From Undibacterium sp. YM2 (lineage in GTDB: Bacteria > Pseudomonadota > Gammaproteobacteria > Burkholderiales > Burkholderiaceae_D), in the NCBI RefSeq assembly GCF_009937975.1, contig NZ_AP018441.1:4154001-4218000 (forward strand): a DNA stretch of 64,000 bases, given 5' to 3'. The stretch's first letter is position 1, and the number at the start of each line of letters is the position of its first letter. Of the stretch, positions 1 through 29,779 are shown piece after piece. A model generated the notes under the pieces. That model saw only the letters and a list, made by a program, of their open reading frames with translations. It searched no databases and was not told where the DNA came from. The position numbers and the translations under genes are program-made.

Positions 1-1783
1 GATAATTCACTTTCTGGTCTTTGTTGCCCAGGCCTATGCCGACATTGATACTCACATCAAACTGGTTGCGCCATTCACGTGGGTCAATATCTACCCAGCC
101 ATTTGATAACCTGACTTGCGTTTTCTTGTCCTGATGCTGGCATATCAATTTCAACACCAGCTTGAACAACTCTGTAAAGCCTTCCGCAAAATTGCGCGAG
201 ATTAAATCCAGACGCATATCTGCCTTGTTGGTGATAATATTCATGCCCTGCGCAGTCTGGTTCAAGCCATCAGAGTCATTTCCCTGGCTATAACGTGTCC
301 AGCCTGTCTTGTTTTCCAGGTCTTGCTGTATATAGTCCAGCAAACCCATGGATTCGCCTGTATTACCCTGCGCCTGGTCCAATCTGCCTACCGCACCAGG
401 CTGTTTGATACGTACCACTCCGCCAGGTCGTGAAGTCAACAAATCATCCAGATTCACCTGACCTTCGACTGCGTAATAGCGGCCATTGACGTTCAAATAG
501 AGATTATCGAGCTGACTGCGCAAGATGCTGGTTTTGGTCTTCTGGCTTTCCATCGCCAGATCGGCAATCGACAAACCAAAGAAGGTATGTGGCAATGGCA
601 CAGGCGTGATATCAACAAAGGGGATAAAATCCACCTCCTCATTGTCAAGCAACTCATTGCCCGCCACCGTCACCTTGCGCAATTCGCTGATGCCATCGCC
701 GTCAAAATCACAACGCACATAAGCTTCTGTAATCCAGATCTTGCGCTGGCTGTCGTCAGCATTCGTCACCTCATCCGACAGATAAGCATTTTCATCATTC
801 CAGCTCAGTCGCTGTATGCGTTCCAGATTCAAGGCTTGCCCCTGATCTTCGCCGCTGATATTGTCAACGTTCTTGTAACCCATGGATTTCAACTCAGACA
901 CTGTCCTTTGCACTCTGTGCCCGACAAACCTGGCTGTCTGTATATCCTTGGCATTGCGTGCAATCAAAAATTCTTCAGGTGACACATTGTCTATCTGTAT
1001 CTTGCCGCCCGTCTTCACGCGCTTGCAGGTAATGTCATACAACAATTCAGGCGGCTGTGACTGGATTTGTTGCAACTGCGCTTGCAACTGCTGTACAACC
1101 GGGTTAACTTGCTGATTTACTGGCAGCATATTCGGCGGGCCAGGTGGCTGTCCGGGTTGCTGAACATTCGCTTGCGGTGCCTGCTGTATTTGCTGACTGA
1201 TTTGCTGGTTGACCTGTTCGATCGCCTGCTGACGCTGCTTGGCATCATCCTCATCCGGATAAGCCTGCTGAGCTATCACCTCAATTTCCGGGTCATCCAG
1301 GATTTGCGCCAACTCTATCTGGTTCAAACCTTTATATTCTTCCTTGGCCTCTTCAAAGCGAGTATCCCACCACACCTTGACAATGCCATTTTTTTGCAGC
1401 AAAGCGTCCTTCATCCACACATAAGCGATCTTGTGACCATTGTTCTTTTTAAAGAACAAGTAATTGATATACTCCGTCGCTGCTTTGGCCCTGGCTTCGT
1501 CGTCCGGGTTTTGCGGTTCGAACTCGACAATCGAATCACCGCCACAAAACGTCAGCATCAATTGCGGCAGCATAGATTCTATGGTGTCACGCACATCGGT
1601 AGAAACTACCGATGAACGGCCATCCACTTCTGGTGGTGATAAATCCCCAACCGCCAGGCCCAGATAATAATATTCCGCCTTTTGCCTCGCTTGTGACAAA
1701 CGCGAAGATGAATAACCCAGGCTCTGGCGCATTTCTGTCTGCACCAGTGCTTTCAATTCGTCTTGAGATAAAGCTTTAGCCAT
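1..1783 (-). CDS. Phage portal protein, P22-like (partial, 3' end outside window)
   Basis: The reading frame opens at an ATG (1783, minus) and stays open to base 1, giving at least 594 residues without the C-terminus. The portal forms the dodecameric ring at the capsid vertex through which DNA is packaged and ejected. The N-terminal part has the look of P22-type portals: an early SSRLSQARQKAEYY segment, then VSTDVRDTIESMLPQL, and later the LRSQLDNLYLNVNGRY and PGGVVRIKQPGAVG segments. A Gln/Pro-rich stretch around residues 180-235 is an insertion-like low-complexity region. It begins 8 bp after the terminase stop, so it is in the same leftward late operon. Family assignment is by recalled resemblance and position, not by search. 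Confidence 0.85.
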   Translation of the reverse strand, partial: MAKALSQDELKALVQTEMRQSLGYSSSRLSQARQKAEYYYLGLAVGDLSPPEVDGRSSVVSTDVRDTIESMLPQLMLTFCGGDSIVEFEPQNPDDEARAKAATEYINYLFFKKNNGHKIAYVWMKDALLQKNGIVKVWWDTRFEEAKEEYKGLNQIELAQILDDPEIEVIAQQAYPDEDDAKQRQQAIEQVNQQISQQIQQAPQANVQQPGQPPGPPNMLPVNQQVNPVVQQLQAQLQQIQSQPPELLYDITCKRVKTGGKIQIDNVSPEEFLIARNAKDIQTARFVGHRVQRTVSELKSMGYKNVDNISGEDQGQALNLERIQRLSWNDENAYLSDEVTNADDSQRKIWITEAYVRCDFDGDGISELRKVTVAGNELLDNEEVDFIPFVDITPVPLPHTFFGLSIADLAMESQKTKTSILRSQLDNLYLNVNGRYYAVEGQVNLDDLLTSRPGGVVRIKQPGAVGRLDQAQGNTGESMGLLDYIQQDLENKTGWTRYSQGNDSDGLNQTAQGMNIITNKADMRLDLISRNFAEGFTELFKLVLKLICQHQDKKTQVRLSNGWVDIDPREWRNQFDVSINVGIGLGNKDQKVNY

Positions 1784-1791
1784 TCCATCCT

Positions 1792-3039
1792 CTATGCATA
1801 AGTAAATTTAGGGTAAGTCAGTTTGCCGCCCCATTCTTCGTTCGACATCGCTTCTGCATTGATACAGATATAGCGCAAGTTGTCTGCACCATGGCTGAAC
1901 TCATCATGCAAAGGCGCGCCAGCTTCATTCGTGCTTTGGTTGATCACGCGGCGATAACGCTTTGCGCATTCAATCAGGCGCGCAGTTTTGTCCGCATCAA
2001 ACCACAGGCGTCCAAATGTCATGCGCGTCAGGCGTATGCCATCTTCGACGCTCATGCTCGGCGTGATCGCCACATCCCAGCCCAGAGCCGTCATGATTTC
2101 TTCTGCGCTCTTGCCAGTCTTGAAGTCCTTGTTGCGGCCATCATGAGGTAAAAATAATTTTCCCCAGTTCATATTTTTTTGCTTCAACAAGGCTGAGTAA
2201 TAATCCAGAGTCTGATGACTGTCTTCCAGGTATTCAATCACCCGCAATTCAGAGCTTTGCCTTTGCACCAGGCTGATAGCCATCGCATCATTCCAGCCCA
2301 GGTCAACCACCACATGCACTTTCAGCATGGGGTCATACGGCACATGACAAATCCTGCCCTGTGCCCCAGCCACTTCGTGGTAATAAATCGCCCCACTGAC
2401 TGCCGGTTTGCATTCACCATCCCAGATATTTTTATAAGCTTCGGGTTCACGCTGCATGCAGGTTTGTCTTTCTCTTTCCAGCACTTCAGGGAACCAGGGA
2501 TTATCACGCCAGTTCATCAAGATCGAAACACAGTCATGCGGTGGTCTTGCGACAAAACGCTGGTGGGTAGGATCAGTTTCCAGCTCCGGGTTATAAGTCA
2601 CCCAGATTTCTGATCCAGCAGTGCGTATCGTCGGTATCAAAATACTCCATGACCTGTCCGACACACTCTGACCTTCTTCTATCCATACCTTGGTGCAACC
2701 TTCAAAAGACTTGATACTATCGGCCGTCTGCTCAGACAAGCCGCTGAAATAAAAACGCGTGCCATTCATGCCGCGAATTTCTGATTCATACACCTGGTAG
2801 AAATAACTCAATCCCAGCGCGGCAATCTGGTCACGCAATAACTGATGCACAGATTGCTTGATCGATTTTTGCAACTCACGTGCGCATAAAATCCGCTCCA
2901 CATTCTGCACACCCAGCAACAACAAGGCGCGGGCAAAACCCCAGGACTTGCCACTGCCGCGCCCACCACGCGCCACCTTGTAACGCGCTGGCTGGAATAG
3001 AAATTCCAGCTTTTCAGGAAACTCACATTCAATCTGCAT
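1792..3039 (-). CDS. terL: Phage terminase large subunit
   Basis: 415 aa, the normal size for the PBSX/P22-like terminase family. This is the packaging motor: an ATPase that pumps DNA into the procapsid plus a nuclease that cuts the concatemer. The Walker A motif GGRGSGKS lies at residues 25-32, a Walker B-like KVWIEE at about 117-122, and a C-terminal RNase H-like nuclease region starts near VVVDLGWNDA with acidic residues, ending in HDEFSHGADNLRY. The start overlaps the end of the small upstream gene by 11 bp and the stop is 8 bp before the portal start, typical of a coupled packaging operon. No frameshift or missing key residue was seen. Confidence 0.93.
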   Translation of the reverse strand: MQIECEFPEKLEFLFQPARYKVARGGRGSGKSWGFARALLLLGVQNVERILCARELQKSIKQSVHQLLRDQIAALGLSYFYQVYESEIRGMNGTRFYFSGLSEQTADSIKSFEGCTKVWIEEGQSVSDRSWSILIPTIRTAGSEIWVTYNPELETDPTHQRFVARPPHDCVSILMNWRDNPWFPEVLERERQTCMQREPEAYKNIWDGECKPAVSGAIYYHEVAGAQGRICHVPYDPMLKVHVVVDLGWNDAMAISLVQRQSSELRVIEYLEDSHQTLDYYSALLKQKNMNWGKLFLPHDGRNKDFKTGKSAEEIMTALGWDVAITPSMSVEDGIRLTRMTFGRLWFDADKTARLIECAKRYRRVINQSTNEAGAPLHDEFSHGADNLRYICINAEAMSNEEWGGKLTYPKFTYA

Positions 3040-3349
3040 TCGGCTTGACCAGTTTTATGGCGATATCGCTAATCAGATGTTCGCCGCTTTCTCCAGCCCC
3101 ATTCACTTGCAGGGGTAAAATCTTCAGATACAACACTGTCCAGAAGGCTTTTTCATTGGTTGGGTCTTCTCTTGCCCATTGTGCCAGGCGCATGGCCCCG
3201 CCCAGTTCTTCGCCAGCTTTGGCAATCGCATCCCTGACCGTCAATGTAGATTGACTGACTGCTTTCTTTGGCCGTCCGCGCGTCTTGGCAGCAGGCTTTG
3301 CTACCATCTCAGATGCAATAGCAGCCTTCACAATTTTGCTTTCACTCAT
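3029..3349 (-). CDS. Small phage protein upstream of terL, possible terminase small subunit
   Basis: 106 aa, directly upstream of and overlapping terL by 11 bp, the usual place of a small terminase subunit, which recognises the packaging site. The N-terminus carries a basic AT-hook-like TRGRPKKA patch (residues about 23-30), followed by a helical middle with TLTVRDAIAKAGEELGG. I do not recognise a classical helix-turn-helix, so the function rests on position and size. It could instead be a phage hypothetical protein of unknown role. Confidence 0.6.
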   Translation of the reverse strand: MSESKIVKAAIASEMVAKPAAKTRGRPKKAVSQSTLTVRDAIAKAGEELGGAMRLAQWAREDPTNEKAFWTVLYLKILPLQVNGAGESGEHLISDIAIKLVKPNAD

Positions 3350-3536
3350 CTATTTTCAGGATGCCTTGCGGCTTGTCCTGCTCCAGGTTGATCGGCATTG
3401 GTCCGCCCGGGAACCATTGGCAGCGCAACTGCACGGTCTGCACAGACCACAATTGCAGGCGCACATTCCCATGATTCCCGTCAACGCCCAAAAAAGATTT
3501 ACCTGTCTGCTGCTTCGCGTTCAGTATGGTCAGCAC
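3342..3536 (-). CDS. Small phage hypothetical protein (start uncertain)
   Basis: 64 aa if begun at the GTG at 3536. The frame stays open further upstream to 3761, but that upstream part runs through a terminator hairpin and a promoter and reads as low-complexity Cys/Phe-rich sequence, so I take only the downstream part as coding. Its stop overlaps the start of the next gene by 8 bp, which suggests translational coupling. The peptide (LNAKQQTGKSFLGVDGNHG, later FPGGPMPINLEQDKPQG) belongs to no family I recognise. No clear Shine-Dalgarno sequence precedes the GTG. Confidence 0.4.
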   Translation of the reverse strand: MLTILNAKQQTGKSFLGVDGNHGNVRLQLWSVQTVQLRCQWFPGGPMPINLEQDKPQGILKIDE

Positions 3537-3631
3537 TATGTGATAGGGTGATACGCTTGCAATCACAAACAGGTAAAAGCATGTGCGCCAGCACGAACAA
3601 ATTGTGTGGCGCGATTCTGTCAATTTTCTGC

Positions 3632-3657
3632 ATTCATGAACAAAATTCGTGAACAAA
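3632..3657. repeat. 13-bp tandem direct repeat between leader terminator and packaging genes
   Basis: ATTCATGAACAAA (3632-3644) is followed immediately by ATTCGTGAACAAA (3645-3657), one mismatch in 13. It lies in the gene-free gap between terminator B and the first packaging gene. Such short iterated sites can be protein-binding sites, for example for a terminase small subunit or a regulator; nothing here shows which. Confidence 0.5.
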
Positions 3658-3663
3658 ACGCAG

Positions 3664-3700
3664 AAAACAAAAAGCCCCGCTGCTTTACAGTAGCGGGGCC
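3664..3700 (-). terminator. Intrinsic terminator B (leftward)
   Basis: On the minus strand, GCCCCGCU (3699-3692) pairs perfectly with AGCGGGGC (3681-3674) around a 10-nt loop, followed at once by UUUUUGUUUU (3673-3664). This is a strong Rho-independent terminator for leftward transcription. No protein gene lies to its right on this strand; the only apparent input is promoter B about 50 nt upstream. Confidence 0.85.
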
Positions 3701-3746
3701 AGATCAACTCTAACAAATCAAATTCTTCAGGACGCAAATCGCCCTG
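3664..3746 (-). ncRNA. Predicted short transcript B (leader RNA or sRNA)
   Basis: About 83 nt from the expected start of promoter B (near 3746) to terminator B. It would begin with a 7-bp stem-loop, CAGGGCG (3746-3740), loop AUUUG, CGUCCUG (3734-3728), with one G-U pair. An A/U-rich unpaired stretch of about 27 nt follows, then the terminator. It is paralogous to transcript A in promoter, operator and 5' stem-loop, while the middle and the terminator sequence differ. Plausible identities are a regulatory sRNA or a phage late leader needing antitermination. Existence is inferred from signals only. Confidence 0.5.
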
Positions 3747-3791
3747 AACAATACTATACACTGATTATTTAATCAGTACAAATTTTTATTA
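3733..3791. repeat. 59-bp direct repeat, copy 1
   Basis: Matches 3967-4025 at a constant offset of 234 bp with two differences in 59 (positions 3738/3972 and 3752/3986). The copy contains the promoter, the palindromic operator and most of the 5' stem-loop of transcript B. Sequence between the copies shows no such match, so this is a duplicated regulatory cassette and not a duplicated gene. Confidence 0.9.
3753..3781 (-). promoter_or_regulatory. Promoter B with overlapping CTG-N10-CAG operator
   Basis: Minus strand: -35 TTGTAC (3781-3776), 17-bp spacer, -10 TATAGT (3758-3753), close to the sigma-70 consensus. The spacer region holds the perfect palindrome ACTGATTATTTAATCAGT (3760-3777), whose 16-bp core has the CTG-N10-CAG form of LexA boxes. 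A repressor bound here would block both promoter elements. LexA control is inferred from motif form; a phage repressor could use the same site. Confidence 0.65.
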
Positions 3792-3889
3792 TTAAATTAG
3801 AGTACGCAGGCGCATCAAGAAAACAACATCTGAATTCAGCCCGGCACACGCATTAACAAAAATAAAATAATCAATAAAAACAATGCCTT

Positions 3890-3924
3890 AAAAACCAAAA
3901 ACCCCACTTTTCACAAAGCAGGGT
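3890..3924 (-). terminator. Intrinsic terminator A (leftward)
   Basis: On the minus strand ACCCUGCUUU (3924-3915) pairs with AAAGUGGGGU (3910-3901) over 10 bp, including two G-U pairs, closed by a GUGA (GNRA-type) tetraloop, and runs into a T-rich tract broken by GG. It would stop transcripts from promoter A after about 90 nt. The sequence differs from terminator B although its position in the cassette is the same. Confidence 0.8.
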
Positions 3925-3980
3925 CCGTGGTTTTTATCTGAGGGATATTACAAAATAGCAATAGGGCGCAACTCGCCCTG
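3890..3980 (-). ncRNA. Predicted short transcript A (leader RNA or sRNA)
   Basis: About 90 nt from the expected start near 3980 to terminator A. The 5' end folds as AGGGCG (3979-3974), loop AGUUG, CGCCCU (3968-3963). Compared with transcript B the stem keeps its pairing although a base differs (a C-G pair here is a U-G pair there), which argues that the RNA structure matters. The single-stranded middle (about 38 nt) is unlike that of B. No convincing start codon with a ribosome site is present, so an encoded peptide is unlikely. Confidence 0.5.
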
Positions 3981-4025
3981 AACAACACTATACACTGATT
4001 ATTTAATCAGTACAAATTTTTATTA
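3967..4025. repeat. 59-bp direct repeat, copy 2
   Basis: Partner of 3733-3791 (57 of 59 identical). The downstream copy in transcription order is copy 1, so a transcript reading through terminator A would traverse cassette B as well. Confidence 0.9.
3987..4015 (-). promoter_or_regulatory. Promoter A with overlapping CTG-N10-CAG operator
   Basis: Minus strand: -35 TTGTAC (4015-4010), 17-bp spacer, -10 TATAGT (3992-3987). The palindrome ACTGATTATTTAATCAGT occupies 3994-4011, identical to that in promoter B. The unchanged operator and promoter in both copies, against diverged flanking sequence, suggests selection on this control region. Confidence 0.65.
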
Positions 4026-4225: not shown

Positions 4226-7200
4226 TTGCCCACATCGTCCTTGAACAATGTCTCCTCTCTGCTCGCGAGGAATCTGCTACTGGCTTTCGTCTATATCCTG
4301 TTTGGACGCATCGCCCTGTTGCTAGCGATTCCTCCCGGCTATGCCATTGCCGTCTTTCCACCGGCGGGCGTGGCAGTGATTGCCGTGTTAACGGGTGGAT
4401 ACCGTCTGCTACCTGGCGTGGCTCTGGGTTCATGTCTCTTCAATCTGTGGATAGGCTGGGAAAGCCAGGGTCAATTGACGCTCACAAATACCGGCCTGGC
4501 CCTGCTGGTTGCCACTGGCGCCATGCTGCAGGCCATGAGTAGCGCTTATCTGCTGAAACGCTTTGTTGGCTATCCCGCTGCGCTTGATGACGAGCGCCAT
4601 GTTGCGCTTTTCCTGTTGCTCGCTGGGCCGGTTGGCTGTCTCGTCAATGCCAGTGCAGGCATCTTTTCCCTGTTCACCCTGGGCCTGTTGCCAGCAGCAG
4701 ACATGTTTGGCAACTGGCTTACATGGTGGATCGGCGACATTCTTGGTGTCCTCATTGTCGCCCCTCTGGTGATGATACTGATTGGACATCCACGCACGAT
4801 CTGGGCATCGCGCCGCGTTAATGTGGGTGTGCCTCTGCTACTCACACTGTCCGTCGTCGTCTCCGTCTTTCTGTATGTACGTGAATCAGAAACAGACCGG
4901 CAAAAACAGGAATTCGAAGCCGAGGCCAGCCGCATGGTGCAAGCCATACAGCAGCGCTTCGATTTACAGAGTGAATTACTGCGCAATCTGGAACGCTTCT
5001 TTGCCAGCACTGATCATGTCTCCAGATTAGATTTTCAAAGCTTTGTCGGCTCCACCCTGCAAAGAGAAAGCACTATCATCGCCGTCGATTGGGCGCCCCT
5101 GGTCATGCAAAGTGACAGATCAGCATTTGAAGCCAGGCTGAGAAAAGAAGGTGAGGCTTCCTTCATTATCAAACAAGGCAGTACTCAGGGCCTGCTCGTT
5201 CCCGCCACTAGACGTGAATTTTATCTGCCCGTTGAATTTGTCGAGCCTTATCTGGCCAACAAGCCAGCACTTGGTTTTGACCTGCTTTCTGAACCTGGCC
5301 GCAGGGTCGCCATAGAACGAGCACGCGATTATGGTCATTTGAGTACCAGCTCCCCTGTCAGCATCATCAACACAGAAAGGGCAAGAAATGTCACTGGCAG
5401 TCTGATCTTCGCCCCCGTCTATACCCGGCATCTGCCCGTTTCTACCAAGGAAGAGAGACGTACGGCATTTCGAGGCGTTGTACTCAGTGTCTTGCATGTA
5501 GACGACCTGATCCGGCATATATTTGGCGAAGACATACGCAAGCAGATACAGTTCCGCCTGCGTGATCTCAACAGCGCTGCCGACAAGGCAGTTATGTATG
5601 ACACTTTGGAAAAAAGTCAGGCAAATACCGTGTTTCGCAGCACCATCCTGTTTGGTGACCATGAGTTTGAATTCAGTGCCCAGCCTTCCCCCGCCTACTG
5701 GCAATTGCACCGGTCCTGGTCAGCCTGGGCGACCCTGATAGGTGGCCTGTTCTTTACCAGCCTCGTCAGCGTCTATCTGCTGGTAGTCAGCGGCAATGCC
5801 TTTCATATCGAGCACAAAGTGCAGCAGCGCACACTGGAGCTGCAAGCCAGCAAAGAAGAACTGATCCGCAGTGGCCTGCTGTTGCAAACCGTCATGGAGG
5901 GTACGGAATCCTATATCCATGTCCGCGATCTGGAAGGACGCTACCTCTACATCAACAAAAAATATGAAACTGTCTTCCAGATGAAACGCGAACAGTTAAT
6001 AGGTAAAACCATAGAAGACGTATTCCCCTATGAGCTCGCAAGAAAATACCGCAGTGCCGAGCAGACCGTCATCACCACCAAGATAGCCTTGCGTACCGAA
6101 GCCATGGTGCAACAAAAAGATGGCATGCATACTTATCTCGTCGTGCGCTCCCCGCTCATCAATGCCGACGGCGAGGTCTTTGGGGCCTGCGGTGTAGGTA
6201 CCGACATTACCCAGCGCAAACGCGACGAAGTCGCCCAGTATGAAAACCTCATGCTGCTGCAGGCGGTCATGGACAGCACCGCCTCTGCCGTTTGCCTGCG
6301 TGACAAAAACGGCAACTACCTGTATGCCAACAAGGAATACGACAGACTCTTCAAGCCCGCCAATATCCCCAGCCTGATAGGCACCAGCGTCTATTATCTC
6401 TTCTCGCGCGACAAGGCAGAACAATACATGCGCCTGTCAGATGAAGTCATCAGGCAGGGAACCACACACCGTACAGAAGTCGCCGTTACTGCTGGCGGCA
6501 TCAACACTACCCACATCCTCATGCTCACGCCCCTGCGCAATGAATCGGGTGAAATTTATGGTGTCTGCACGGTAGGTACCGACATCAGCCAGCGCAAGCA
6601 ATCAGAAGAAGCCATCCTCGCTCTGAATGCTCAACTGGCTGCCACCACCGCCCTGCAAAACGCCATACTTGATAGCGCCAATTTCTCCATCATCGCCACC
6701 GACACCGCAGGCCTGATACAAGTCTGGAGTAAGGGAGCAGAACTCATGCTGGGTTATAGCGCGGCAGAAATGATAGGCCTGCAAACCCCACTCTGCCTGC
6801 ACGAAAGATCTGAACTGACCAGCCGTGCCGCCAGGCTCAGCCAGGAATTCGATACCCCGGTAGCTGCCGGGTTTGCCGTATTTGCCCTGCGTGCACTGCA
6901 TGGCATGGCCGATGAAAGCGAATGGACTTACAAGCGCAAAGACGGCAGCCGCCTGCCCGTCATGCTATCAGTCACAACCCTCAGAGACAGCGAGGGAGAA
7001 ATATCCGGCTTCCTCAATATTGCCTACGACATCACCGAGCGCAAAAAAGTCGAAGTCATGAAAAACGAATTCATATCCACCGTCTCGCATGAATTGCGAA
7101 CCCCACTAACCTCGATACGCGGTGCCCTGGGTTTGCTCATGGGCGGCGCACTGGGTAAAATGCCAGACAGCGCAGAAAAAATCCTCGACATCGCCACCAA

Positions 7201-7774
7201 AAATTGCCAGCGTCTGGTCAGGATGATCAATGATATTCTCGATGTAGAGAAAATAGAATCAGGCAAGATGGAATTCAACTTCGCCCGGGTACATTTGATC
7301 CCTGTGCTGGAACAAGCCATCGCCGCCACCGTGGCCTATGCAGAACAACACCAGGTCATCCTCAAACTGCAGACGGAAGTCAAAGACGACATCGTCAGGA
7401 TAGACACAGACCGCATTACCCAGGTGCTCATCAACCTGCTCTCAAATGCCGCCAAATTCTCCCCTCAGGGTGCCACTGTCGATGTGCTGCTGACATCTCA
7501 ACCAGGCCAATTGCGGGTTGCCATCATCGACCAGGGCATAGGCATAGCCGACGAGTTTCGTGATCGTATCTTCCAGAAATTTGCCCAGGCAATATCTTCT
7601 GATTTCAACAAAAAAAGCGGCACTGGTCTGGGCCTGAGCATCTCCAAGGCCATTGTGGAACACCATGGAGGGCAAATTGGTTTTACCAGCGTCATCGGCC
7701 AGGGCAGTGAATTTTTCTTTACGCTGCCAGTCAGCGACGTGCTTGATGATACGCAGGATAACCATCAGACCTGA
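4226..7774 (+). CDS. Membrane hybrid-input sensor histidine kinase (MASE1-CHASE-PAS3-HisKA-HATPase)
   Basis: 1182 aa, beginning at a TTG with GGGGAG 9 bp upstream; an in-frame stop at 4196 excludes a longer start. The order is: MASE1-type multi-spanning membrane sensor (about 1-215), periplasmic CHASE domain (about 235-440), a further membrane helix (about 500-520), a short coiled coil, three PAS domains (about 555-670, 680-795, 810-935), HisKA with phospho-acceptor His in STVSHELRTP near residue 955, and HATPase with N box NLLSNAAKFSP, G1 DQGIGIAD and G2 GTGLGLS. All catalytic motifs look intact. No response regulator is adjacent, so it is an orphan kinase whose ligand is unknown. It converges with the AraC gene, overlapping by 10 bp. 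Confidence 0.93.
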   Translation: MPTSSLNNVSSLLARNLLLAFVYILFGRIALLLAIPPGYAIAVFPPAGVAVIAVLTGGYRLLPGVALGSCLFNLWIGWESQGQLTLTNTGLALLVATGAMLQAMSSAYLLKRFVGYPAALDDERHVALFLLLAGPVGCLVNASAGIFSLFTLGLLPAADMFGNWLTWWIGDILGVLIVAPLVMILIGHPRTIWASRRVNVGVPLLLTLSVVVSVFLYVRESETDRQKQEFEAEASRMVQAIQQRFDLQSELLRNLERFFASTDHVSRLDFQSFVGSTLQRESTIIAVDWAPLVMQSDRSAFEARLRKEGEASFIIKQGSTQGLLVPATRREFYLPVEFVEPYLANKPALGFDLLSEPGRRVAIERARDYGHLSTSSPVSIINTERARNVTGSLIFAPVYTRHLPVSTKEERRTAFRGVVLSVLHVDDLIRHIFGEDIRKQIQFRLRDLNSAADKAVMYDTLEKSQANTVFRSTILFGDHEFEFSAQPSPAYWQLHRSWSAWATLIGGLFFTSLVSVYLLVVSGNAFHIEHKVQQRTLELQASKEELIRSGLLLQTVMEGTESYIHVRDLEGRYLYINKKYETVFQMKREQLIGKTIEDVFPYELARKYRSAEQTVITTKIALRTEAMVQQKDGMHTYLVVRSPLINADGEVFGACGVGTDITQRKRDEVAQYENLMLLQAVMDSTASAVCLRDKNGNYLYANKEYDRLFKPANIPSLIGTSVYYLFSRDKAEQYMRLSDEVIRQGTTHRTEVAVTAGGINTTHILMLTPLRNESGEIYGVCTVGTDISQRKQSEEAILALNAQLAATTALQNAILDSANFSIIATDTAGLIQVWSKGAELMLGYSAAEMIGLQTPLCLHERSELTSRAARLSQEFDTPVAAGFAVFALRALHGMADESEWTYKRKDGSRLPVMLSVTTLRDSEGEISGFLNIAYDITERKKVEVMKNEFISTVSHELRTPLTSIRGALGLLMGGALGKMPDSAEKILDIATKNCQRLVRMINDILDVEKIESGKMEFNFARVHLIPVLEQAIAATVAYAEQHQVILKLQTEVKDDIVRIDTDRITQVLINLLSNAAKFSPQGATVDVLLTSQPGQLRVAIIDQGIGIADEFRDRIFQKFAQAISSDFNKKSGTGLGLSISKAIVEHHGGQIGFTSVIGQGSEFFFTLPVSDVLDDTQDNHQT

Positions 7775-10020: not shown

Positions 10021-10148
10021 GCGCGGTAAAGCTTTCATTAAAAAGCAGTGGTACTAAGCAATAAACTTGATGCTCCGCTCGTAAGCTCATACCCACAAGA
10101 CCCACCACCCTCCCTCAAAGCCCGCTTATAAAAATATTCCGACCGCAC

Positions 10149-10178
10149 TTGCAACTGAGAATGATTCTCATTTATAAT
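10149..10178 (+). promoter_or_regulatory. Fur box and promoter of the heme operon
   Basis: TGAGAATGATTCTCA (10156-10170) is a perfect 15-bp palindrome matching the Fur-box pattern. It lies between a -35 TTGCAA (10149-10154) and a -10 TATAAT (10173-10178) with an 18-bp spacer, so Fur-Fe(II) would block RNA polymerase when iron is sufficient. The receptor gene starts about 160 bp downstream. The rest of 9872-10336 holds only the REP-like element and this promoter. Confidence 0.88.
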
Positions 10179-10336
10179 AAACTCGATTAAAATATATTAG
10201 TCGTAAAAACTCCCCTTTTTACGATGCTCCCAGCCTCAAGCACGATGCAATGAACGTGCGGGCTATGGAGCTGACCATGATACGCACCAGCCAGTCGCCG
10301 CTAGCCAGTGTCCAATTTTTAAAATTAGGAAACACG

Positions 10337-12535
10337 ATGCTAAGCAAGACGCAAATCGCCCTGGCGCTGGGTATGGCATGGGGCATGGCTCCGGCAACTA
10401 CTTTTGCACAAACTCCAGGCCCGGTTCCACCGACAGAAGCAACTACTCTCAAAGACATTACTGTCACCTCTACGCGTACCGCCAGGACAGTCGATAGTGT
10501 GCCAAATACCGTCACCGTCATCCCTGCATCCAGGATAGAGCAAGAAGGTGGCCGCGACATCAAGGACCTGTTCCGCAATGAACTCGATATCAGTGTACGT
10601 GCTGCCCCTACCCGCTTTACAGCGGCTGGCAGCTCCACTGGTCGTGCTGGTAATGAAGGCATCAATATTCGTGGACTGGAAGGTAACCAGGTCTTGATGC
10701 TGGTTGATGGTACGCGTGTACCGGATAGTTTTTCGTTTGGCGCATTTGCGACAGGCCGTGGTGATTTTCTTGAACTCGATGGCATCAAGGCAGTAGAAAT
10801 TTTGCGAGGCCCTACCTCCACACAGTTCGGTAGCGATGGTCTGGCTGGTGCAGTCAGCTTCCGGACGCTGGACCCGTCTGATTTGCTCAAAAAAGGCCAG
10901 TCTTTTGGTGGCTTCGTACGTTCTGGCTATGGCACAGTCGATCGCTCATGGCGCAATACTGCCGCTATCGCTGGCGACAACGGTAGCTGGCAAGGTTTGC
11001 TGCTGGTCAGTGACCGTCGTGGTCATGAAACAGAAAACCGTGCAGACAATGACGCAAAAAACGTCAACCGCACAAAACCAAATCCAGTAGATTTCAATGC
11101 CCAATACCTGCTGGGTAAGGCAATCTTCAAAATCGATGGCAACCAGCAAATCGAAGCCAGCGTAGAAGCACAAAAACGCACGCAGGATACTGATGTTTAT
11201 TCTGCCCGCGCCATCCCGCCACTGGCATCCACCAGTACCCTGGACCTCGATACCCGCGACAAGGTAGAGCGCAATAAACTCAGCCTAGCACACCGCTATA
11301 GAAACCTGAATTCCAGCTGGTTGCACAATGCCGAGACACGCCTGTACTGGCAAGATGCCAAGGTCAGCCAATACTCTGCCGAAGACAGGAACACCGCTGC
11401 TGACCGCACCCGCGACAACCACTACAACACCAGGATCGTCGGCCTGTCCAACATCATGGAAAGCAATTTCTCCGGTGCAGTTGAACAAAAACTCAGCTAC
11501 GGCTTTGACTGGAACCGCACAGAAGTCACCGGCCTGCGCGATGGCACGGTAGCGCCTTTTGGCGAAACTTTCCCGGCCAAGCCTTTCCCTGATACGACTT
11601 ACACAGTCACAGGCGCCTTCATCCAGGATGAAATCGAAGCAGGCAAGCTGAGCATCATCCCCAGCCTGCGTTATGACCACTACAAACTTGCACCATCGAG
11701 TGCAGGTTACACAGGCGGTGCAGTAGCCACCTTGTCCGACAGTGCAGTCACACCACGCCTGGGCCTGGTATGGCAACTCGACGCTGCCTTTGCACCTTAT
11801 GCACAATTCGCCAAGGGCTTCCGTGCACCTACTCCTGACCAGGTCAATAATGGTTTCACCAACCTGGCATCCGGCTACACCAGCATAGGCAATTCACAAC
11901 TGAAAGCAGAACGTGCTGACAGCTTTGAGATTGGCTTTCGTGGCAGAGTGCAGGGTTTGCGTTATTCCTTCGCCGCATTCGACAATAGCTACAAAGACTT
12001 CATCAGTCAGCAGGTAGTGCGCGGCACTGGCACTGCAATCGACCCGCTGGTATTCCAGTACATCAACCTGGCCAAGGCGCAAATCCGTGGTGCAGAAGCC
12101 CGTGCAGAATTGCAAATCGACAGTAACTGGCAAGCCACTGCTGGTGTCTCCTACACCAAGGGCGACAGCGAAGTTGCCGGCGTAAAAACGCCACTCGACA
12201 CCATCAACCCAATGAAATTCCTGGCAGGCCTGCGCTATGAAACAGCAGCCTGGGGCGCACGTGGGCAATTCCAGCATCATCAAGGCAAGCAGCTCGACAG
12301 AATCGCACCTGCAGCAACAACACAGTTTGCACCAGGTTCTTACCACATCGTTGATCTGGGTGTGTACTGGAGGCCCATGCCAAACCTGATAGTCAATGTC
12401 AACCTCAACAATGTCTTTGATACCAAATACTGGGCCTGGTCTGATGTACGCGGCCTGGCTGATAACACCAACGTCAAAGATGCTTACACCGCCCCTGGCC
12501 GGAATGCCCAGGTATCAGTTCGTTACGACTTTTAA
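10337..12535 (+). CDS. hmuR: TonB-dependent heme/hemoglobin receptor
   Basis: 732 aa. I chose the ATG at 10337 because AGGA precedes it and it starts a clean signal peptide (MLSKTQIALALGMAWGMAP, cleavage after FAQ); the frame is open further upstream. A TonB-box-like LKDITVTSTR comes next, then the plug domain (INIRGLEGNQVLMLVDGTRVPD), then a 22-strand-type barrel ending in the aromatic VSVRYDF. The FRAP motif in AKGFRAPTPDQ is the signature of the heme receptor family. Heme binds at the outer membrane and is pulled in using TonB energy. It heads the heme operon, under the Fur box. Confidence 0.92.
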   Translation: MLSKTQIALALGMAWGMAPATTFAQTPGPVPPTEATTLKDITVTSTRTARTVDSVPNTVTVIPASRIEQEGGRDIKDLFRNELDISVRAAPTRFTAAGSSTGRAGNEGINIRGLEGNQVLMLVDGTRVPDSFSFGAFATGRGDFLELDGIKAVEILRGPTSTQFGSDGLAGAVSFRTLDPSDLLKKGQSFGGFVRSGYGTVDRSWRNTAAIAGDNGSWQGLLLVSDRRGHETENRADNDAKNVNRTKPNPVDFNAQYLLGKAIFKIDGNQQIEASVEAQKRTQDTDVYSARAIPPLASTSTLDLDTRDKVERNKLSLAHRYRNLNSSWLHNAETRLYWQDAKVSQYSAEDRNTAADRTRDNHYNTRIVGLSNIMESNFSGAVEQKLSYGFDWNRTEVTGLRDGTVAPFGETFPAKPFPDTTYTVTGAFIQDEIEAGKLSIIPSLRYDHYKLAPSSAGYTGGAVATLSDSAVTPRLGLVWQLDAAFAPYAQFAKGFRAPTPDQVNNGFTNLASGYTSIGNSQLKAERADSFEIGFRGRVQGLRYSFAAFDNSYKDFISQQVVRGTGTAIDPLVFQYINLAKAQIRGAEARAELQIDSNWQATAGVSYTKGDSEVAGVKTPLDTINPMKFLAGLRYETAAWGARGQFQHHQGKQLDRIAPAATTQFAPGSYHIVDLGVYWRPMPNLIVNVNLNNVFDTKYWAWSDVRGLADNTNVKDAYTAPGRNAQVSVRYDF

Positions 12536-12547
12536 GAAGGAATCGTC

Positions 12548-13660
12548 ATGCCAGCCCAACATTTGAACCCGCAGCAAAATGCTAAAGTACGTGAAGAATT
12601 CGCCAGCATGCGCCGCGAGAAAAAAGCCAGACATCGTGACATCGCAGAAACTTTGGAGATCAGCGAAGGCGAGCTGATCGCCGCCCACGCAGGCACAGCA
12701 GCCATAGAAAGCAACTGCCTGCTGCGTGCCACCTGCCTGCGCGCAGAGTGGCCAGAAATTATCGCCGCGGTAGAAAGCCTGGGCGAAGTCATGGCCCTGA
12801 CACGCAATCCTTCCTGCGTCCATGAAAAAACTGGCAGCTACAGCAAAATTAGTAATAATAATCACATTGGCCTGGTGCTGGCAGGTGAAATCGATTTGCG
12901 GATTTTTTATCAACAATGGGCATTTGGCTTTGCCGTGACAGAGCAAACAGGAAGCGGCGAAGAACGCAGCGAGCAAAAAAGCCTGCAATTCTATGATGCT
13001 ACCGGCACTGCCATCCACAAGATTTTCATCAAGCCACAAAGCAATGTAGAAGCGTATGAAGCCCTGGTCGCCAGCTTTGCCGCTGTTGAACAGCAAACCG
13101 GTATCCAAACAAAAGATGCCGCAGAAAAACTGCTGGAACTGGCTGACAAGGACATCGATGTCACCGGCTTCCGTCAGGCCTGGGCATCCTTGCGTGATAC
13201 TCATGAGTTCTTTGGCCTCATGAAAAAATTTGCCGTGACGCGCACCCAGGCCTTGCGCGTGGCTGATGCCCGGTTTGTCCAACAAATTGATGTCAGCAGC
13301 TGCCAGGATTTATTGCAGGCCGCTGCTGCTGAAGCTGTACCCATCATGGTATTTACCGGCAATGTCGGCATGATACAAATCCATTCCGGCCCGGTCAGCA
13401 AGATTGCCAAAATGGGGCCGTGGGTGAATGTGCTCGACCCACGCTTCAACCTGCATCTTCGTGAAGACCATATCGCCAGTGCATGGGTCGTCAAAAAACC
13501 AACCACAGATGGCCTCGTCACATCACTGGAATTGTTTGATGCCGACGGCGAAACCATCGCCATGTTCTTTGGTGAACGCAAACCCGGCAAGCCAGAACTC
13601 TGCGAATGGCGCGCATTGATCGACAACCTCTTGTCAGAAAGCCAGACATGCGCAGCATAA
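12548..13660 (+). CDS. hmuS: Hemin-degrading/heme-trafficking protein HmuS (HemS/ChuS family)
   Basis: 370 aa, the size of the family, with two homologous halves. The N-terminal LNPQQNAKVREEFASMRRE and MALTRNPSCVHEKTGSY, and the C-terminal WVNVLDPRFNLHLREDHIASAWVVKKPT, are typical of HemS/ChuS/HmuS. These cytoplasmic proteins accept heme from the ABC importer and degrade or store it. It starts 12 bp after the receptor stop with AAGAAGGA upstream, and its end overlaps hmuT by 13 bp. Confidence 0.92.
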   Translation: MPAQHLNPQQNAKVREEFASMRREKKARHRDIAETLEISEGELIAAHAGTAAIESNCLLRATCLRAEWPEIIAAVESLGEVMALTRNPSCVHEKTGSYSKISNNNHIGLVLAGEIDLRIFYQQWAFGFAVTEQTGSGEERSEQKSLQFYDATGTAIHKIFIKPQSNVEAYEALVASFAAVEQQTGIQTKDAAEKLLELADKDIDVTGFRQAWASLRDTHEFFGLMKKFAVTRTQALRVADARFVQQIDVSSCQDLLQAAAAEAVPIMVFTGNVGMIQIHSGPVSKIAKMGPWVNVLDPRFNLHLREDHIASAWVVKKPTTDGLVTSLELFDADGETIAMFFGERKPGKPELCEWRALIDNLLSESQTCAA

Positions 13661-14583
13661 GCCCAACAAATCGCTTGCGCAGGCAGGCATTGATGCAACT
13701 TGCTAGCCTGGCGGGTTTGGCTGGCTCCAGCATGCTGGCACCGTGGGCACAAGCCGCAACCGGCAAAGGCAAGCAGCGCATCATCAGCGTAGGCGGAGCA
13801 ATCACCGAGATCATCTTCGCCCTCAATGCCAGCAATGACCTGGTTGCCGTCGATACCACCTCCAACTTCCCTGAGAGCGTGCAAAAACTGCCTAACGTCG
13901 GTTATGCCCGCGCCCTGTCGGCAGAAGGTGTACTGGCCCTGGCCCCTACCCAGATCATCGCCAGCGAAGATGCAGGCCCGCCTGCCGTGATACGCCAGTT
14001 GACATCCTCCGGCATACCACTGGCGGTCTTGCCTGCGCATCACAAGTTTGAAGGCGTGCTCGACCGCATCAAGCAGATTGGTGAACTGACTGGCACACAA
14101 GCCCAGGCAGCTACCCTGATGCAGAGCCTGCAGCAGGAATGGACCAGGGTCCGCATGCCAATAGAGCAGCGCAAGGGCAAAGGCCCCAAAGCCGTATTCA
14201 TTCTCGCTCATGCACCTAACCAGATCATGGTGGCAGGTCGTGAAACCGCTGCCCATGCCGTGCTTGAATATGCAGGTGCCAGCAATGCCTTGACTGCGGC
14301 CAATGGTGGCAATGGCAGCAGCGGTTTCAGTGGCTACAAGCCTTTGACACCAGAAGCCATGATCGCCGCCCAGCCTGACATCATCCTCGTGACTGACCAG
14401 GGCCTGAAAGCCTCAGGCGGCATAGAGTCTGTGTTGAAATTGCAGGGTGTGGAACAAACACCGGCAGGCCGCAAGCGCCGCATACTGTCACAAGAAGCCA
14501 TGCTCATGCTGGGCTTTGGGCCGCGTCTGCCGTCGGCGATCAGCCAGCTTGACAGTGCCATCATCAAGGCCATGCAGGCATGA
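13648..14583 (+). CDS. hmuT: Heme ABC transporter periplasmic binding protein
   Basis: 311 aa from the ATG at 13648, which overlaps the end of hmuS. The N-terminus is a signal peptide with a paired arginine (RLRRQALMQLASLAGLAG), possibly for Tat export, with cleavage near AQA. The mature part has the cluster A-2 binding fold: IISVGGAITEIIFALNASNDLVAVD and VGYARALSAEG, where the Tyr corresponds to the heme-ligand Tyr of ShuT/PhuT. It hands heme to HmuUV. Its last four bases form an ATGA overlap with hmuU. Confidence 0.92.
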   Translation: MRSISPTNRLRRQALMQLASLAGLAGSSMLAPWAQAATGKGKQRIISVGGAITEIIFALNASNDLVAVDTTSNFPESVQKLPNVGYARALSAEGVLALAPTQIIASEDAGPPAVIRQLTSSGIPLAVLPAHHKFEGVLDRIKQIGELTGTQAQAATLMQSLQQEWTRVRMPIEQRKGKGPKAVFILAHAPNQIMVAGRETAAHAVLEYAGASNALTAANGGNGSSGFSGYKPLTPEAMIAAQPDIILVTDQGLKASGGIESVLKLQGVEQTPAGRKRRILSQEAMLMLGFGPRLPSAISQLDSAIIKAMQA

Positions 14584-15665
14584 AAGCCTCGGTAACTGTG
14601 TCTGGTGAATTGCCACCAAGTTTGCAGGCAAAGCTTTTGCAAAGCGGCAGGCCTGGCCTGCTGCTGGTGCTGGGTATCTCCCTGCTTGCCGCTTTGCTAC
14701 TGAGTGTGCAATTCGGTGCCGTGCCTGTCGCATTGCAAGACTGGCTGACCCTGCTAGACTTCAGCGACGACCAGACTTTGACAGGCAGCAGCTATGTCTT
14801 GTGGAATATCCGCCTGCCGCGTGCCCTGTTTGCCGTGCTGGTGGGTGCTGCACTCGGCATGTCAGGTGCATTGACGCAAGGCTTGTTCCGCAACCCGCTG
14901 GCAGATCCCAATTTGCTGGGCATTACTGCCGGTGCGGCTGCGGCTGCGGGTTTGAGTATCGTTGTCCTGTCAGGCATGCACTTGCCTATTCCCATGTCAT
15001 GGCGTATGTGGATCTTGCCGGTCACTGCGTTCAGCGGCGCACTGCTGGTTTGCTTTGCACTTGATCGTGTGGCGCGCTGGATTTCACCTGGTTCCATCGT
15101 TGGCCTGCTATTGACAGGTATTGCTTTGAATGCCCTGAGCGCTGCCGTACTGGGTCTGTGCACTTACCTTGCAACGGACGAACAATTGCGCAACCTGAGT
15201 TTCTGGACCCTGGGTTCCCTGGCAGGTGCGAGTTGGCTGGCTGCTAGCTTGCTATTGATGTTGCTGTTGCCAGCTTGGTGGTGGGTCAGGCGCATGATCA
15301 GCGCCATGAATGCCCTGGCCCTGGGCGAAGCTGCGGCTGCCCATGTCGGCATCGATGTACGCCGCCTGCGCAGCCAGGTCATTGTACTGGTCGCGGTACT
15401 GACCGGGTTTGCGGTAGCCTGGTGTGGCATGATAGGCTTCATCAGCCTGGTTGCACCACATCTGGTGCGCACCATGGGTGGGCCAGATCAAAGACAGGTG
15501 ATACCACGCTCCATGCTCATGGGTGGTTTTCTCTTGCTGCTGGCCGACACCGTGGCACGTTGCATCGCCATCCCGGCTGAAGTGCCAGTGGGTATTTTCA
15601 CGGCCCTGCTGGGCAGCCCTTTCTTCCTGATCCTGCTGCGTAATGCACGTAGTCGTTTAGCCTGA
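14580..15665 (+). CDS. hmuU: Heme ABC transporter permease
   Basis: 361 aa, FecCD/BtuC-type permease with about ten membrane helices. Conserved segments include RLPRALFAVLVGAALGMSGALTQGLFRNPLADPNLLGITAGA near residues 80-120 (split by helices) and the coupling-helix region ALGEAAAAHVGIDVRRLR. It forms the dimeric inner-membrane channel for heme. The start overlaps hmuT by 4 bp, and hmuV follows 14 bp downstream. Confidence 0.93.
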   Translation: MKASVTVSGELPPSLQAKLLQSGRPGLLLVLGISLLAALLLSVQFGAVPVALQDWLTLLDFSDDQTLTGSSYVLWNIRLPRALFAVLVGAALGMSGALTQGLFRNPLADPNLLGITAGAAAAAGLSIVVLSGMHLPIPMSWRMWILPVTAFSGALLVCFALDRVARWISPGSIVGLLLTGIALNALSAAVLGLCTYLATDEQLRNLSFWTLGSLAGASWLAASLLLMLLLPAWWWVRRMISAMNALALGEAAAAHVGIDVRRLRSQVIVLVAVLTGFAVAWCGMIGFISLVAPHLVRTMGGPDQRQVIPRSMLMGGFLLLLADTVARCIAIPAEVPVGIFTALLGSPFFLILLRNARSRLA

Positions 15666-15679
15666 ATAGGCTACATATC

Positions 15680-16495
15680 ATGTTAATGAAAACCACCACA
15701 CAACAGGGTTTGCTTCAGCTTGACGCCGTCTGCGCCAGGCTGGGCAAGAAAGATTTTGGGCCCTTTAATATCAGCATAGGCAAGGCAGAAAAAGTCGCCA
15801 TACTCGGCCCCAGCGGTGCAGGTAAATCCACGCTACTGAAACTGCTGTCCCGTGAATTGAAAACCAGCAGCGGCGACATCACTTTTCAGTCACGCCCGCT
15901 GGCAAGCTGGTCCTTGATGGAACTCAGCCGCCTGCGCGCCGTCCTGCCGCAAAACAGTGATGTGGCCTTTGGTCTGGAGACTGATCTGGTCATCAGCCTG
16001 GGTCGTGTCAGCCGTGCGCATGATCCTGATCTGGCAAACATAGTCAGGCAAGCAGCGGCCATGGCCCATGCAGCCCATTTGCTGGGCCGTCGCTTTGACA
16101 GCCTCTCTGGCGGCGAACAGGCACGCATACAACTGGCGCGCATCTTTGCCCAGTTGTGGGACCAGCGAGACGGCCTGATACTTGTCGATGAACCGCTGGC
16201 AGCACTCGACCCCGGCCTGCAATTTGACCTGCTCGCCAGCCTCGAAGAATATGCGACAGAACGCCAGCATGCCATCGTCGCCATCCTGCATGACATCAAC
16301 CATGCGATGCAGGCGTTCGAACGTCTGCTGTTAGTAAAAAATGGCCAGCTCGTTGCTGATATCGCCAGCAACCGCGAAGCAGTACCAGCGCTGGAAGACT
16401 TATACAATATTGCTCTGACTTGCATGCACAATGAAGAAGGTGATTTGCTGGTCACCCCCTTGCGCGCTTCATCCCGCGCCAGGAAAAGCGCATAG
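15680..16495 (+). CDS. hmuV: Heme ABC transporter ATP-binding protein
   Basis: 271 aa (an ATG two codons later is equally possible). Walker A GPSGAGKST, ABC signature LSGGEQARIQLARI, Walker B LILVDEP and the switch His in ILHDINHAM are all present. The family pattern is that of heme/iron-chelate importers. It powers HmuU from the cytoplasmic face. It ends 37 bp before the glyoxalase-like gene, in the same direction. Confidence 0.93.
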   Translation: MLMKTTTQQGLLQLDAVCARLGKKDFGPFNISIGKAEKVAILGPSGAGKSTLLKLLSRELKTSSGDITFQSRPLASWSLMELSRLRAVLPQNSDVAFGLETDLVISLGRVSRAHDPDLANIVRQAAAMAHAAHLLGRRFDSLSGGEQARIQLARIFAQLWDQRDGLILVDEPLAALDPGLQFDLLASLEEYATERQHAIVAILHDINHAMQAFERLLLVKNGQLVADIASNREAVPALEDLYNIALTCMHNEEGDLLVTPLRASSRARKSA

Positions 16496-29230: not shown

Positions 29231-29267
29231 TTAACGTTTACGTTAACGTCAATTCTTGTGCTATTCT
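29231..29267 (+). promoter_or_regulatory. LiuR-like operator with 19-bp-spacer promoter
   Basis: TTAACGTTTACGTTAA (29231-29246, arms of 6) overlaps TTTACGTTAACGTCAA (29237-29252), which holds the perfect palindrome ACGTTAACGT. The second resembles the LiuR (MerR family) site of branched-chain amino acid genes, as I recall it. TTTACG (29237-29242) and TATTCT (29262-29267) are 19 bp apart, the long spacer typical of MerR-type promoters. It would drive a transcript starting with the cobalamin riboswitch. Confidence 0.55.
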
Positions 29268-29276
29268 AAAAATAAC

Positions 29277-29480
29277 AGGTGCACGGCCCAATCTCTTGGG
29301 CTGTGTTAAACGGGAAAGTGGTCGTCCTGATCGCTGTCACTAGCAAGTGACAGTAGGTATCAAGACCCAAGCCCCTGCTGCCTCCGCAACGGTAAGCGAG
29401 TGCGGTTACATCATCCACGCCACTGGTCAGGCCTGACTGGGAAGGCGATGTAACAAGACTTGCGAGCCCGGATACCGGCC
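29277..29480 (+). promoter_or_regulatory. Cobalamin riboswitch
   Basis: The conserved blocks occur in order: TTAAACGGGAAAGTGG (about 29305-29320), GCTGCCTCCGCAACGGTAAG (29379-29397 region), GCCACTGGTC (about 29420-29429), GACTGGGAAGGCG (about 29435-29447) and the B12 box GCGAGCCCGGATACCGGCC (29462-29480). This is a complete aptamer on the plus strand. The next clear gene on this strand is mmsA at 29780, 300 bp away. No clear terminator was found in the gap; a hairpin GCGGGC/GCCCGC near 29727-29741 lacks a T run. Confidence 0.9.
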
Positions 29481-29779
29481 TGTTGATCGCTGAGAAAAAC
29501 ATTGCGGAAGGCGGTGTTTGGGATATGGCATGGCACGCCTGATGGTGGGCGGGTGCTTGTCTTCAATACTGTTCTTTCACTGTTTTTCCAAGGTCTGGTC
29601 ACGTACGGAAGGTGCGTGGCGGGTGTGCGTCCACATGGCGTATGCCCATGGTCAGGATGGTTGCTGCGGCAGATTTCTGCAGGTGGCGGCTGTCTTGTTT
29701 TCAGGCATCAGTGCGGCTGTTGTTGCGGGCGTGGCCCGCCGTCTGTCCGTGCGCAATCAGGAAAGTACAGGAAATCATC
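29481..29779 (+). other. Leader between riboswitch and mmsA
   Basis: About 300 bp with open frames but no recognisable protein; the putative peptides are Cys/Trp/Arg-rich and have no clear ribosome sites. A remnant of a lost vitamin B12 gene or a long riboswitch expression platform are both possible. The mmsA ribosome site AGGAAA-type lies at the right end. Confidence 0.4.

Follow-up and report, generated by a model that had tools for sequence, protein, structure and literature searches.

The late-gene locus and its array

The window, the whole stretch of 64,000 nucleotides of Undibacterium sp. YM2 analysed here, carries two leftward cassettes on its minus strand at 3669-4025, each composed of a promoter, a palindrome within the promoter spacer, a 5′ hairpin and an intrinsic terminator (Table 1). 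Tandem promoter-hairpin-terminator cassettes had been proposed here in the initial annotation, and a 63-nt direct repeat (3729-3791 and 3963-4025; 95% identity, spacing 234), the palindromes and the RNA folds bear this out. In each cassette the minus strand reads TTGTAC-N17-TATAGT, and the spacer holds ACTGATTA-NN-TAATCAGT. Palindromes of this 8-2-8 form number five in the whole window against about one expected, and two of the five are those of the array. When the two predicted RNAs were compared with dinucleotide shuffles, none of 200 shuffles equalled the fold of either RNA.

Table 1. Coordinates of the array, its leader and the adjoining genes in the window
Feature	Position	Strand	Description
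Portal protein	1..1783	-	PF23899 SU10_portal, E 1.6e-213; extends beyond the window (L005:13420-15783)
Terminase large subunit (terL)	1792..3039	-	PF04466 Terminase_3, E 4.1e-34
Probable terminase small subunit (terS)	3029..3349	-	Named by position; phrog_11043 (unknown function), E 2.9e-07
18-codon mini-ORF	3342..3398	-	Stop overlaps the terS start (ATGAGTGA), by eye
88-nt leader element	3491..3578	-	Between the last terminator and terS; 13-pair basal stem TTTACCTGTTTG...CAGACAGGTAAA
Cassette B predicted RNA	3669..3746	-	About 78 nt; fold z -4.97; 5′ hairpin 3728-3746, conserved middle, terminator stem 3674-3700 and U-tract
Cassette B promoter	3753..3781	-	TTGTAC 3776-3781, 17-nt spacer, TATAGT 3753-3758
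Cassette B spacer palindrome	3760..3777		
Cassette A predicted RNA	3891..3980	-	About 90 nt; fold z -5.15; pair counts from 10 cassettes; 5′ hairpin 3962-3980, middle, extended terminator 3899-3926 with flanking AAAAACC/GGTTTTT stem
Cassette A promoter	3987..4015	-	TTGTAC 4010-4015, 17-nt spacer, TATAGT 3987-3992
Cassette A spacer palindrome	3994..4011		ACTGATTA-NN-TAATCAGT; proposed site of a dedicated regulator or antiterminator
MASE1-CHASE-PAS histidine kinase	4226..7774	+	Divergent host gene; right flank of the array

The cassette promoters match the sigma-70 consensus at 8 of 12 positions (TTGTAC against TTGACA, 3 of 6; TATAGT against TATAAT, 5 of 6), and neither was picked up by a promoter scan that required at least 9 of 12; to call them near-consensus, as had been done, was an overclaim. 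A pattern scan of 2.4 kb of the array strand gave six terminator-like sites against 3.3 expected and picked up the hairpins of both cassettes and the terminator of cassette A, while the terminator of cassette B was identified from sequence and fold. By these signals a predicted intrinsic terminator lies between the promoter and the first gene. At the gathering threshold of Rfam 15 the array has no RNA family match, the single match in the window being a cobalamin riboswitch far to the right (29265-29497, 86.6 bits), and a BLAST search of the array block against 50,697 phage records returned one weak 46-nt match (E 0.4). We also considered whether the RNA of cassette B might be coding, as part of a 139-codon ORF (3342-3761), and rejected this: the ORF has no Pfam or PHROG family, and changes and indels between species ignore its frame (by eye).

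At all six loci described below the array precedes the terminase genes. The leftward order is terS, terL, an SU10-type portal, scaffold, capsid, adaptor, tail genes and endolysin; the capsid and adaptor match SU10_MCP (E 6.6e-100) and SU10_adaptor (E 4.6e-31), scaffold, tail and endolysin were assigned by PHROG families, and the terS candidate has no Pfam family. The terL protein is 94-99% identical to that of the window's own genome, G000. With G000 as the reference, the ranges of dN/dS are 0.007-0.030 (capsid), 0.012-0.039 (terL) and 0.039-0.047 (portal), and the late head genes are under purifying selection. Constraint is looser on the scaffold (0.08-0.13) and on p313, a tail gene (up to 0.41). 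Among the tail genes, some are saturated or strongly diverged, or have no match in some relatives. Stops occur in four alignments, near protein ends or ahead of the likely start.

The 88-nt leader element has stem arms that are identical across five aligned genomes. A leader pattern requiring the stem arms found six copies at five of the six loci, two of them in one genome (TS12, see below), and the G019 copy was missed by the pattern because it differs just past the stem. The end of the mini-ORF that overlaps terS is likewise conserved across five aligned genomes (by eye), and the overlap may allow translational coupling.

Past the endolysin we observed a variable row of paralogous proteins, mostly of 380-580 aa, with small ORFs between them (L004:16146-18278 and L005:1-1723; L071:1418-11284; L070:598-10586; L068:11664-16584). 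Some members have signal-peptide-like starts (by eye), one carries Pfam Phage_lysozyme2 and SLT, three others that were scanned have no Pfam match, and copy number varies between species. Our guess is that this row is a changing effector-and-immunity array.

Distribution and copy number of the cassettes

This large terminase occurs in five of 43 Undibacterium genomes, and the array accompanies it in all five: the window's own genome (G000, 6.66 Mb), G328, G034 (Undibacterium pigrum DSM 19792), G019 (U. umbellatum NL8W) and G303 (Undibacterium sp. TS12, here TS12). The carriers are several related freshwater bacteria. A metagenome contig, L132, adds a sixth locus, with three cassettes, the kinase flank and the same late genes. 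Together the six loci provide a set of 17 cassettes, found mostly via the palindrome itself, so that palindrome-free cassettes may be missed. Intact palindromes number two in G000, three each in G328, U. pigrum and U. umbellatum, and one in TS12.

We found the array at no other locus in the genomes searched. With up to three mismatches allowed, promoter and palindrome together gave 12 matches in the five genomes, every one of them an array cassette, and across the family the promoter-palindrome pattern occurs in four of 294 genomes, all Undibacterium (G019 lies outside this sample). The bare palindrome without mismatches was restricted to the array in U. pigrum, G328 and G000, among the matches listed; with up to three mismatches it matched 19-28 times in each genome, and the reversed pattern 10-26 times. 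When 60 relatives were searched by BLAST with the block, G000, G019 and G034 alone matched strongly, with E values of 5.7e-66 or better, and the next match stood at 4.1e-8. When one strand of 93 terminase relatives was scanned, the palindrome appeared in four: the loci of U. pigrum DSM 19792, U. umbellatum NL8W and TS12, and L132.

Two cassettes, the number given initially, is right for the window but not for its relatives, where three is the commoner state: four loci have three clear cassettes, TS12 has one intact and two diverged, and the window has two after a 203-bp deletion. The flank upstream of the cassette B promoter corresponds to the middle cassette of G328 and its RNA to the last one, and we therefore conclude that a third cassette was lost by a deletion between repeats. 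Recombination of this kind would be the route by which cassette copy number changes.

Conservation within the cassettes

TTG and TATA are invariant in all 17 cassettes. Of these, 15 also have both arms of the palindrome intact, a fraction that is biased upward because the cassettes were mostly found by the palindrome. The centre of the palindrome is AA, TA or TT while the arms are unchanged, which is as for the site of a putative dimeric protein. In TS12 the two cassettes nearest terS lack the palindrome and retain TTG, TATA and terminator, and the most upstream cassette is intact. In this genome a cassette and the leader element have been duplicated together (L045:9117-9743); both copies are without the palindrome, one of them reading CTGTCTGTGTGGGCAG.

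The position of the array just upstream of terS, together with the invariant leader stem, could suggest a packaging-site (pac or cos) or terminase-binding array. The architecture, however, is one of promoters and terminators, and TTG and TATA are kept where the palindrome is gone; we give this explanation almost no credence. A second possibility is that the promoters and terminators are an inert remnant of an ordinary prophage, now decaying. The loss of the palindrome in two of three TS12 cassettes, the missing cassette of the window and the diverged or unmatched tail genes of some relatives would agree with decay. Against this stand the 15 intact palindromes, the low dN/dS of capsid, terminase and portal and the positions of the stops, near protein ends or before the likely start, and we regard a remnant as very improbable.

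The RNA bodies are better conserved than the spacers that follow them, with mean identities of 0.87 against 0.74 for A1, 0.94 against 0.77 for A2 and 0.97 against 0.68 for B (TS12 left out; B from five copies). In the A type 97.3% of cells are paired, and one pair is changed on both sides, a count reached by 150 of 500 shuffles. The B type has two compensated terminator pairs, a two-sided count reached by 184 of 500 shuffles; four cells are changed on both sides (one of 500 shuffles as high) with a score of 0.228 (one of 500), and since this covariation rests on six distinct rows we treat it as modest evidence. For the 5′ hairpin, a MAFFT alignment of the 17 cassettes gave no compensatory change and pairing not above shuffles; among standard pairs the only changes are between G-C and G-U. 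The earlier statement that the stem-loop keeps its pairing is thus correct in that G-C passes to G-U, but no two-sided change is seen in the 17 cassettes. In the two diverged TS12 copies a hairpin still folds at this position, which we did not count as support. Decay of the block without covariation, the outcome against which the initial annotation had staked its reading, is seen in part: two of the three TS12 cassettes have decayed to the extent that the palindrome is gone, and covariation is modest.

Conserved bodies and strong folds (Table 1) would also be properties of sibling trans-acting sRNAs, RNAs of about 80-90 nt with a terminator tail that act on host or phage mRNAs, and A1 and A2 of one genome have short variants in the RNA middle in common. 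Cassettes A and B have bodies of different sequence, however, Rfam offers no match at the gathering threshold, and the array is confined to the late-gene locus in the genomes searched. In a duplex test against 25 local gene starts, the lowest fractions were 0.025 and 0.035, which do not stand out once multiple testing is allowed for. We consider sRNA function doubtful. The shared variants suggest concerted evolution of A1 and A2, but we do not claim it, as over the whole body the two are no more alike within a genome (0.87-0.92) than copies from different genomes are (A1 0.82-0.96, A2 0.91-1.00).

A probably domesticated cluster beside hmuR

The kinase gene that flanks the array is present in U. 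pigrum, U. umbellatum and L132, with its first part only in G328, and is absent there in TS12. To the right, all five array genomes have hmuR on the contig of the array, at a distance of about 0.3 to 16 kb. On the left, an EAL gene was seen in G000, G328 and U. pigrum, and the stretches of TS12 and U. umbellatum ended short of it. In G004, a congener that has no terL, the EAL orthologue ends about 500 bp from hmuR with no match to element sequence between them, giving an empty site. In G031 (hmuR 96%, no terL) the contig ends about 100 bp upstream of hmuR and is uninformative in this respect. The right-hand neighbour of the insertion site is a heme/iron uptake locus (window 10100-16495) with a TonB receptor (10250-12535) and hmu-like genes, named by reading, and a Fur-box-like sequence upstream (by eye).

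Between the flanking host genes of G000 lie 25 ORFs of at least 90 aa. A PHROG scan of 24 of them matched no integrase, repressor or replication family; the scan covered ORFs at the element locus, and 87% of PHROGs are without known function. Prophages of the same kind in other genera (G384 and G353) have early-type genes upstream of terS (by eye). From G000 to G328, G034, G019 and G303, dS is 0.30, 0.34, 0.53 and 0.99 for terL and 0.19, 0.31, 0.54 and 1.02 for hmuR. The kinase (0.94 to G034, 0.93 to G019) and the EAL gene (1.30 to G034) have higher values from G000 than terL and hmuR, and in the tail gene p518 G000 is closer to G303 than to G034 or G019. Because terL and hmuR agree while kinase, EAL gene and p518 deviate, inheritance of the element looks mostly vertical with exchange of modules.

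The array had first been placed upstream of the packaging genes of a prophage. Its place before the terminase genes holds at all six loci, and the word prophage needs changing in view of the conserved late genes, the scanned ORFs free of integrase, repressor and replication families, and hmuR alongside in five species. To judge by gene content and neighbourhood, the cluster looks like a domesticated, gene transfer agent (GTA)-like element rather than an ordinary prophage. GTAs are defined by particle proteins derived from Caudoviricetes, a fully endogenized genome and mostly vertical inheritance or co-diversification, and further by the packaging of random host DNA, an own genome that cannot be packaged whole and the delivery of DNA, as set out in the part of the source used here (PMC9662315). 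Particle proteins derived from Caudoviricetes are present in the Undibacterium cluster, namely SU10_portal, SU10_MCP, SU10_adaptor and Terminase_3 together with the PHROG scaffold, tail and endolysin families.

LexA as a candidate repressor

We then weighed what might bind the palindrome. A LexA box has the consensus CTGT-N8-ACAG, and the array palindrome resembles LexA-box promoters in placing CTG-N10-CAG spacing over the promoter. If it were a repressor operator, with LexA as the best candidate, the late genes would be SOS-induced at initiation and the terminators would only cut leak. A matrix was built from 11 distinct boxes, taken from the own lexA, the genes we take to be recA and ruvA, and lexA loci of five of 12 congeners (the other seven had no box in the stretch searched). 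It ranked the array sites as the top two of 117,980 own positions, with 12.7, the runner-up scoring 11.0. The array is thus barely above background, and each training box scored higher when it was itself left out (14.5-27.0); the training boxes had been chosen by CTG-N10-CAG or the consensus. Both palindrome arms read CTGA rather than CTGT, so with this lower score the array palindrome differs from a CTGT-N8-ACAG operator that scores with the boxes of the genus.

A site upstream of a gene that we read as imuA-like shares one identical half-site, TAATCAGT, in G000 and U. pigrum, and the site also matches in G328. Each array genome has one LexA above the cut-off, and 39 of 43 congeners were matched. 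In TS12, by contrast, promoters are kept though the palindrome is gone, those sites scoring 0.4 and -9.5. Loss of a repressor site would leave the palindrome-free promoters of TS12 open, so this genome counts against repression. We think control by LexA unlikely, though it is the strongest competitor of the reading favoured below, and a weak LexA input would fit SOS induction. An additional LexA paralogue as the regulator was rejected, given the one LexA above the cut-off per array genome; a second match in G000 falls below it. As a separate observation, L099, L100 and L092 contain two imuA-like genes (named by reading) with LexA-like boxes in which one half is CTGA and not CTGT, and for the L100 gene this box has matches in three species.

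Antitermination as the favoured reading

Among the three options first put forward for the array, a late leader needing antitermination fits best, because the block precedes the terminase genes, because of where the palindrome sits and because terminators upstream of terL are frequent; the sRNA option is kept alive by the conserved RNA bodies, and nothing was found for a packaging array. Among the 74 relatives that extend 1000 nt or more beyond terL on its upstream side (the other 19 of 93 were too short to be used), 26 have a terminator upstream of terL; once the array loci are taken out the figure is 22 of 70, compared with 20 of 345 downstream control segments. This contrast is overstated, since most of the control sequence is coding and the relatives include near duplicates. 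In L134 and L121 a promoter-like site is followed by two tandem terminators before a terS-like ORF.

By analogy with known late-gene control, we suggest that the array is the late-operon control region of a domesticated, GTA-like podovirus cluster and acts through antiterminator-loading promoters, a reading that we favour tentatively and put at somewhat below an even chance. Each cassette would be a complete start-then-stop unit, in which a promoter with a palindromic site is followed by an initial transcript that is structured and then by a strong intrinsic terminator. In the default state, only short RNAs of about 80-90 nt would be made. A dedicated antiterminator would load onto polymerase at the spacer palindrome, a candidate site between -35 and -10 where AlpA, GafZ and lambda Q bind, and the modified polymerase would read past every terminator ahead of it and past the leader, and so transcribe terS, terL and the portal, capsid, tail and lysis genes. 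Particle production would be a further part of this reading. With two or three copies in tandem there would be more sites for loading and more terminators, so that the off-state would be tighter and the on-state stronger. TS12 speaks for loading rather than repression, as one intact upstream site would suffice for read-through, although this is one genome only. The four two-sided cells of the B type were counted for antitermination.

Several results run the other way. The RNA bodies are conserved beyond the apparent needs of promoter and terminator, the covariation of A and B is modest, and of all sites in 118 kb none is more LexA-like than the array palindrome. The repetition of the promoters, unlike those of CcGTA and AlpA discussed below, also counts against this reading. 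The background of the bare palindrome at up to three mismatches was likewise counted against antitermination, as was a palindrome outside the array, one mismatch from it, which lies in another G000 prophage near lysis-like genes (by eye; L103, G000:C1:1854547-1854566). No Q family was found beside terS; PF03589 was seen in none of ten genomes searched, and PF06530 in one of the ten, G000, where it belongs to another prophage, with four of the five array genomes having no match to it. Q-like ORFs seen by eye beside terS in related phages were rejected as candidates, having no Pfam support and, in one of five, a PHROG of unknown function (phrog_19609).

A more specific version would make the cluster an undescribed GTA-like viriform of Undibacterium derived from an SU10-type podovirus, whose switch consists of tandem antiterminator-loading promoters, each locked by a terminator, with the number of locks tuned by recombination and an antiterminator of unknown family. 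We advance it as a speculative possibility, on the unlikely side.

Comparison with known systems

At lambda pR′ the 6S RNA is a short terminated leader before the late genes, with a single promoter and terminator and the Q gene adjacent. The array resembles this system in having a short terminated leader RNA, here predicted, ahead of late genes and a site in the promoter spacer; it differs in its repeated units and in its neighbour, no Q family having been found beside terS. In binding position, lambda Q has been likened to GafZ and AlpA (PMC11150451, PMC7969949). The AlpA element of Pseudomonas aeruginosa targets lies between -35 and -10 and is followed by one or two intrinsic terminators and then the first gene, an arrangement similar to that of Undibacterium; the element itself is different (GGGACGN5GGTA), and tandem units are not among the AlpA features described in the portion of the account used (PMC7969949).

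The Caulobacter GTA (CcGTA) offers a close parallel. It has a near-perfect palindrome between -10 and -35 that is needed for GafZ binding at the only target of GafZ, its terminator consists of three direct repeats, and GafY-dependent promoters have a degenerate -35 (PMC11150451). Shared with the array are the palindrome between -35 and -10, a single genomic target, a terminator to pass and a phage-derived cluster of similar size (14 kb in CcGTA). In contrast, CcGTA has one promoter and a terminator after the first gene, whereas in Undibacterium the unit is repeated two or three times before the first gene (PMC11150451). By these likenesses the array may work in the manner of Q, AlpA or GafZ, and its tandem promoter-site-terminator units would be a variation not met in the portions of the CcGTA and AlpA accounts used here (PMC11150451, PMC7969949).

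If the antitermination reading is true, the layout of lambda Q, AlpA and the Caulobacter GTA recurs, multiplied, in a domesticated phage of betaproteobacteria. Nature would then have provided a way to test how the repetition of promoter-terminator units determines the threshold of what is probably a lethal decision. Repeated two or three times, the start-then-stop signals resemble a built-in lock, which a factor allowing transcription past the stops may open. The GTA groups named in the part of PMC9662315 used here are in alphaproteobacteria, a deltaproteobacterium, an archaeon and a spirochete, and the cluster could be a GTA-like element outside them. In the literature searched, no paper links Undibacterium with gene transfer agents; work on Undibacterium prophages concerns other topics, judging by titles, and GTA literature with Betaproteobacteria or Burkholderiales held nothing of this kind among the matches listed.

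Finally, the Q-like antiterminator gene in the other G000 prophage (PF06530, phrog_79; L213, G000:C1:1830784-1831125), which we counted in favour of antitermination, is itself followed by a promoter-like site and two tandem terminators (by eye).
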